NCBI RefSeq assembly: GCF_032854445.1
Contig: NC_088301.1
Span: 22,561,808 to 22,625,807 of the forward strand
DNA length: 64,000 nt
Direction of reading: 5' to 3'
From: Liolophura sinensis
Taxonomy: Eukaryota; Mollusca; Polyplacophora; Chitonida; Chitonidae
The translations under genes and the position numbers were made by a program. Of this stretch, positions 50,521 to 51,030 are shown in pieces (within the stretch, counting starts at the first letter, position 1; each line of letters starts with the position of its first letter). The notes beneath the pieces were generated by a model. It did not search any database. It was given only the letters and a program-made list of their open reading frames with translations, and was not told the origin of the DNA.

Positions 50521-51030
50521 GTTTGTTTGATCACCCAGGTCTCTGTACGATCTTTGAGATGATACTGTACAGTCAACTTTTGGAACTGTTTGTTTAGTCA
50601 TCAAGTTCCCTGTATGGTGATTTCGATGATACTATATAATTTTCTTTGAACACTTTTTTTTATTTAGTGGTCAATTTCCCTATACGGTTATAACGGTTAT
50701 ACTGCGTAGTTTCCCTTTGAGCACTTTCAGTTTAGTCATCAATTTCCATAAACGGTTCTTGAGATGATACCGTATATTTTTCTTTGAACACTGTTTAGTC
50801 ATCCAATACCTAGTACGCTGAATGAGATGATACTGTTCAGTATTGTTTGTTTAGTCATCAATTTCCATAAACGGTTCTTGAGATGATACCGTATATTTTT
50901 CTTTGAACGCTGTTTGTTAAGTTATCCAGTTCCTTGTACGTGATTGCGATGATTCTGTATAAATTTTCTTTCAACACTGTTTGTTCAGTCATCAAGTTCC
51001 CTGTAGGGTGCTTGAGATGATACCATAAAG
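50521..51030 (-). repeat. 67-bp tandem repeat containing the gene 2 tail codons
   Basis: About eight units start near 50521, 50588, 50655, 50727, 50793, 50845, 50912 and 50979. Each carries a gtttgtttagtcatcaagtt-like block, then ccctgta and gagatgatac. The unit at 50979 is coding: it holds the stop and the last 15 or so codons of gene 2. Aligned to that frame on the minus strand, unit 50588 reads SSKSPYRELDD-stop, unit 50521 SSQRSYRDLGD, and units 50727 and 50845 SSQEPFMEIDD-stop; the others have internal stops or indels. A candidate AATAAA lies at 50659-50664. Confidence 0.85.

Follow-up and report, generated by a model that had tools for sequence, protein, structure and literature searches.

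Here we report that the end of a Src-family tyrosine kinase gene (gene 2) of the chiton Liolophura sinensis, found in a window of 64,000 nucleotides (C7:22561808-22625807), lies inside an array of eight tandem units with a period of about 67 bp. The array is real and looks like a gene-derived minisatellite of ordinary type that starts in the Src-family tail. Very probably a segment consisting of tail, stop codon and flank was duplicated and expanded into eight units, of which the first is coding and the rest are neutral. An initial annotation of this stretch had described about eight units at the end of gene 2, and the array was recovered by Tandem Repeats Finder, by cutting the sequence at a shared anchor, and by a match to the coding end that exceeds simulation. 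The same annotation had taken the coding unit for the final one; read in the direction of the gene, it is the first.

Gene 2 lies entirely on the minus strand and its pieces follow one another in the order SH3-SH2-tyrosine kinase. A putative N-terminal exon, which we read from an open frame at 60826-61020, begins MGCIQAS, a myristoylation-type start, and precedes the two halves of the SH3 domain at 59799-59885 (tblastn) and 58718-58804 (Pfam/tblastn) and the two halves of the SH2 domain at 57430-57531 (tblastn) and 56679-56831 (Pfam/tblastn). The kinase exons run from 54722 to 50988 and comprise an N-lobe exon (54450-54722) and a catalytic-loop exon (53953-54114), both with approximate ends, a penultimate exon (51623-51754, start approximate) with the phase-1 donor A/GTAGGT, and a last exon (50985-51193; phmmer, Pfam PF07714) that begins at the acceptor TTTTAG/CC at 51194/51193 and contains the end of the kinase domain, the C-terminal tail and a TGA stop. 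Reading through this stop yields an unrelated 20-residue extension, which we rejected as part of the protein. Eight pieces of gene 2 were compared with Pfam: five scored above the cut-off (one SH2, four kinase), an SH3 half (21.3 vs 22.9 bits) and the glycine-loop piece (11.0 vs 23.1) fell below it, and the eighth, taken in the wrong frame, matched no relevant family. By phmmer the last exon matches Src with an E-value of 2.4e-14, residues 3-63 being aligned through the tail Tyr, and the best 60 of its 586 matches are Src, Fyn, Hck, Lck, one designed Src-Abl ancestor and one protein labelled only tyrosine-protein kinase. The N-lobe exon alone was closest to the Src-Abl ancestor, with Fyn, Abl, Fgr, BTK and Src following about equally. 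The closest solved relatives of gene 2 are therefore Src-family kinases in which the tail Tyr is aligned, and both this Tyr, which in Src-family kinases is phosphorylated by a Csk and then bound by the SH2 domain, and the SH2 Arg, within FMVR, are present in its sequence. Alignment and domain order alike bear out the earlier identification of a Src-family kinase with a regulatory-type tail, that is, a C-terminal tail of the Src Tyr527/530 type. The usual SH2 motif is FLVRES, which contains the FLVR Arg; the SH2 domain of gene 2 is divergent at 57430-57531, with FMVRYTK in place of FLVRES and the Arg kept.

Tandem Repeats Finder placed a 67-bp array at 50844-51024, and a repeat search returned a 58-nt family with seven copies from 50524 to 51039. 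Cutting by the shared anchor gave eight minus-strand units, with anchors at 51022, 50954, 50888, 50832, 50769, 50701, 50631 and 50564 and, in gene order, spacings of 68, 66, 56, 63, 68, 70 and 67 (56-70 bp); the edge of the array farthest from the coding unit is at ~50527. What is repeated amounts to 12 tail codons, the stop and ~28 bp of 3′ flank. The coding core (U0, 50985-51023) is 39 nt long including the stop, and is followed on the same strand by U1 (50918-50955, 79% identical to U0), which has a 1-nt deletion and has lost its stop; U2 (50851-50889, 82%), which reads VSSQEPFMEIDD and a stop and has Phe for Tyr; U3 (50795-50833, 74%), which has an internal stop (VSSHSAY-stop-VLDD-stop); U4 (50732-50770, 82%), with a core identical to that of U2; U5 (50664-50702, 67%), with two internal stops; U6 (50594-50632), the closest copy at 87%, which reads VSSKSPYRELDD and a stop; and U7 (50527-50565, 72%), at the outer edge of the array, which reads VSSQRSYRDLGD and has no stop. 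All of the tail-like peptides quoted in the initial annotation are present, with the detail that no stop follows SSQRSYRDLGD. The Tyr codon is replaced in the two Phe units as described, by a change of two bases (TAC to TTT).

The likeness of the units to the coding end exceeds that expected of random sequence, which the initial annotation had set as the test of its claim. Aligned without gaps, the coding tail and stop agree with the downstream sequence at 34, 32, 32, 29, 28 and 26 of 39 bases in six units, as against a best ungapped match of at most 25 of 39 in 2000 first-order Markov sequences. The weakest of these units, U5 (26/39), stands only narrowly above the simulated maximum, and the 79% of U1, with its 1-nt deletion, comes from gapped alignment, the simulation covering ungapped matches and the six other units. 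Similar units in tandem, above chance, are what is expected of a minisatellite. Clear sharing between units starts at ~51023, within the last exon, and takes in the non-coding flank. For the 28 nt of kinase exon that precede this point, identity to the other units is 21-46% (one-sided p 0.01 to 0.78), with 11/28 in U6 (p 0.07), 12/28 in U7 (p 0.03), 13/28 in each of U2 and U4 (p ~0.01 each, the two being mutually dependent) and p-values of 0.46-0.78 in U1, U3 and U5. Since this block is not clearly shared, the most likely starting point of the duplication is ~51023; short or gapped sharing upstream of that point is possible. The kinase codons that precede the tail (YLEDFM, set beside FKENYI in U6 by tblastn) were considered as part of the repeat and were not counted as such.

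On this evidence we propose that a segment of ~67 bp, holding the last 12 codons, the stop and ~28 bp of 3′ flank, was duplicated in tandem and then expanded to eight units, presumably by slippage or unequal exchange. Because the copies lie beyond the stop, the first unit still encodes the tail and the protein is unchanged. The seven other units are non-coding, appear to be decaying neutrally, and probably lie in part within the 3′ UTR, with exchange among them, as between U2 and U4, apparently recent. The coding unit is likely the founder, as the initial annotation had supposed, a direction of descent that we read from one species; it accords with the presence of four Src-like-tailed paralogues that have no array nearby and with the single genomic location of the array.

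In a genome of 609,464,459 bases (632 contigs), one DNA search, in which very common words were skipped, located the array at a single place. At least four last exons of Src-family-like type, that of gene 2 among them, form a cluster on one strand, at 5119-25720 and 50985-61020 in the window and at C7:22631953 and C7:22660211; gene 1, whose last exon is at 5316-5119 in the window, is on the same strand as gene 2. When the DNA is read by eye, the tails of gene 1 and of the loci at C7:22631953 and C7:22660211 have Tyr at the equivalent place, and one last-exon tail in the cluster reads FFDDYFVAAESTYRDVDNQ. The four Src-like-tailed paralogues (L003, L004, L005 and L008, L004 being gene 1) are free of arrays for 60 bp around the last-exon match, which agrees with the earlier description of the gene 1 tail as lacking repeats, and the stretches examined about their last exons contain no direct repeat of at least 25 nt. 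Unrelated arrays occur at greater distance in L003 and L005. Among 30 kinase-like loci, most of them kinase-like matches of unconfirmed last-exon status, an array lies within 60 bp of the match in three: gene 2 and L030 and L031, the latter two being weak matches (E ~0.11) and perhaps no kinase exons. A further kinase last-exon match on C12 (L006:1501-1689), 46% identical to that of gene 2, contains one in-frame TGA and may represent a pseudogene or an end that has diverged.

Arrays of this kind are common in the genome. Within the window there are 18 arrays of period at least 20, the gene 2 array included, covering 4810 of 64,000 bases (7.5%); six other 10-kb stretches hold 14, covering 3187 of 60,000 bases (5.3%), and the surroundings of 30 kinase-like matches, two of which fall in the window, hold 21, covering 7.5% of the sequence. 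With arrays covering 5-8% of sampled sequence, an array on a stop codon is unremarkable and, selection left aside, many genes should have their stop codon within an array.

The downstream units appear to change like neutral sequence. Substitutions were counted over the 36 coding nucleotides of six distinct downstream cores, U4, whose core is the same as that of U2, being excluded and U0 kept apart. There are 39 changes from the unit consensus, 27 amino-acid-altering or stop-making and 12 synonymous (31%), or 31 if shared changes are counted once, 24 altering and 7 synonymous (23%); random change would give a synonymous share of 0.23-0.27, depending on transition weight. A consensus built without U0 gives 26 altering and 13 synonymous changes, or 23 and 8 unique ones, with an expectation of 0.24-0.29. 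Two changes in stop codons, in U1 and U7, lie outside the 36-nt count, and all of these counts are approximate, coming from a small sample and from a consensus built from the same units with their shared ancestry. Internal stops occur in U3 and U5, U1 is frameshifted and U7 has lost its final stop, which leaves U2, U4 and U6 complete (3/7). Cores without a stop number four of six, with 4.3 expected; U1 is among the four despite its frameshift, as indels were not part of the neutral simulation and U1 was therefore scored as stop-free. Tyr is kept in five of the six distinct cores, with 3.7 expected and a probability of 0.24 for at least five, a slight lean towards retention. Such values are those of minisatellite units evolving without coding constraint, and they give no indication of donor copies kept open by selection, as silent cassettes would be; the power of both comparisons is low and, the sequences being short, weak constraint on some units is still compatible with them. 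Since the retained peptides match the neutral expectation, common descent is explanation enough for the tail-like peptides.

Three other accounts of the array can be set against a local duplication of the gene end. That it is a dispersed satellite or transposon unit which came to lie next to the gene, its likeness to the tail being accidental, has next to no chance of being correct: minisatellites are abundant in this genome, but the match to the coding tail is better than in simulated sequence, and the array was found at one place only in the DNA search. The units might instead serve as alternative last exons, spliced for example from the phase-1 penultimate exon to AG/TATC in U6 or U7, so as to give a truncated kinase with a tail. 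An AG stands at the same place in five of the seven downstream units (U1, U3, U5, U6 and U7) and its phase fits the donor of the penultimate exon; however, the sequence before these AGs is purine-rich, with a pyrimidine fraction of 0.29-0.47 compared with 0.82 at the last-exon acceptor, U2 and U4, two of the three complete units, have no AG, and the product would be without the end of the C-lobe. No convincing splice acceptor was found in the downstream units, and we hold such splicing to be highly improbable. Somewhat less improbable, yet still unlikely, is that the repeats form a 3′ UTR regulatory element under selection, acting through structure or as a repeated binding site. U1-U5 may be transcribed if the AATAAA at 50659-50664, whose first base is also the final one of the U5 core and which is the only canonical polyadenylation hexamer on the minus strand in 49001-51100, is used; one or two such hexamers are expected there from composition by a rough estimate, so that this one is at chance level and a weak pointer. 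Against a selected element, the fold of 351 nt is no better than that of shuffled sequences (z 0.33; 64 of the 100 shuffled versions equalled or exceeded its stability), none of seven predicted pairs in the unit alignment is changed on both sides, and no Rfam family reaches its gathering score in 50300-51300, the two hits having E-values of 2.7 and 4.6.

The remaining account, and the one that the initial annotation raised, is that the downstream units act as a reservoir which converts or recombines with the coding unit and so generates alleles with other tails, including Phe for the regulatory Tyr. Exchange inside the array does look recent, judging from U2 and U4, which are alike at 62 of 66 bases over a longer block; given this near-identity, the change from Tyr to Phe most likely arose once and was then copied. 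U6 matches the coding unit at 87% and is as close to the consensus as U0 is (3/39 changes each, those of U0 being one amino-acid change, one synonymous change and one from stop to stop), a closeness that might stem from exchange between U6 and U0. The whole tail frame, stop included, survives in three of the seven downstream units. With units apparently having exchanged sequence recently, the coding unit too may on rare occasions be altered in this way, and conversion of the tail is to that extent tenable in principle. It is countered by the neutral-like character of the copies, which show no clear excess of synonymous change or open frames over expectation, and four of the seven of which are broken by a stop or a frameshift or end without a stop; by the identity of U0, which is at most 87% to any unit, so that no recent conversion of the coding unit is visible; and by the base of the comparison, one locus in one haploid assembly. 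We therefore find no support for the copies as a tail-switching reservoir and give that account only a slender chance. Equally slender are the prospects of its corollary, that unequal exchange between U0 and the downstream units would occasionally yield Phe or otherwise altered tails and make autoinhibition polymorphic in chiton populations. If tails were exchanged with the array in populations, the off-switch of a kinase would be edited by a neighbouring minisatellite, and to our knowledge no such case is known.

The probable origin of the array by local duplication of the gene end places it among minisatellites of the VNTR type that overlap gene ends, with which it shares units of some tens of bp, uneven divergence, apparently recent exchange and local origin. 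It differs from others of that type in that its unit includes a stop codon and a functionally important tail, which is why the non-coding units spell tail-like peptides. Src-family tails are matched by gene 2 in its alignment with Src, which runs through the tail Tyr, and in its exons for SH3, SH2 and kinase domains; the difference is that of the eight units the coding one alone forms such a tail, the peptides spelled by the downstream copies being putative. Silent donor cassettes are used by gene conversion in antigenic variation, and the array resembles them in that a single expressed copy is accompanied by several partial ones that are not expressed, but neither expressed variants nor constraint on the copies nor conversion of the expressed copy was seen in the gene 2 array, which is known here from one assembly. 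A few phrase searches of titles and the beginnings of abstracts found no comparable case, and one may still have been published.

On a practical level, users should be aware that, when the end of a coding region is partially copied in tandem, the copies can mimic functional alternative peptides, and that at such divergence neutral copies would be expected to keep open frames about as often as was observed. Elsewhere in the window, 51838-53747 holds six more minisatellites between the catalytic-loop and penultimate exons of gene 2, apparently within one intron. A 69-bp array with 16 copies at 98% (29544-30753) has open frames in both directions (390 aa on the plus and 371 aa on the minus strand); as its period is a multiple of three, these double open frames may be mere periodicity. 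At 49570-49770 a long AT-dinucleotide tract is flanked by inverted sequence (CTGCAACTATATTATATAA ... TTATATAATATAGTTGCAG, identified by eye), and may possibly be a cruciform or a small inverted-repeat element.
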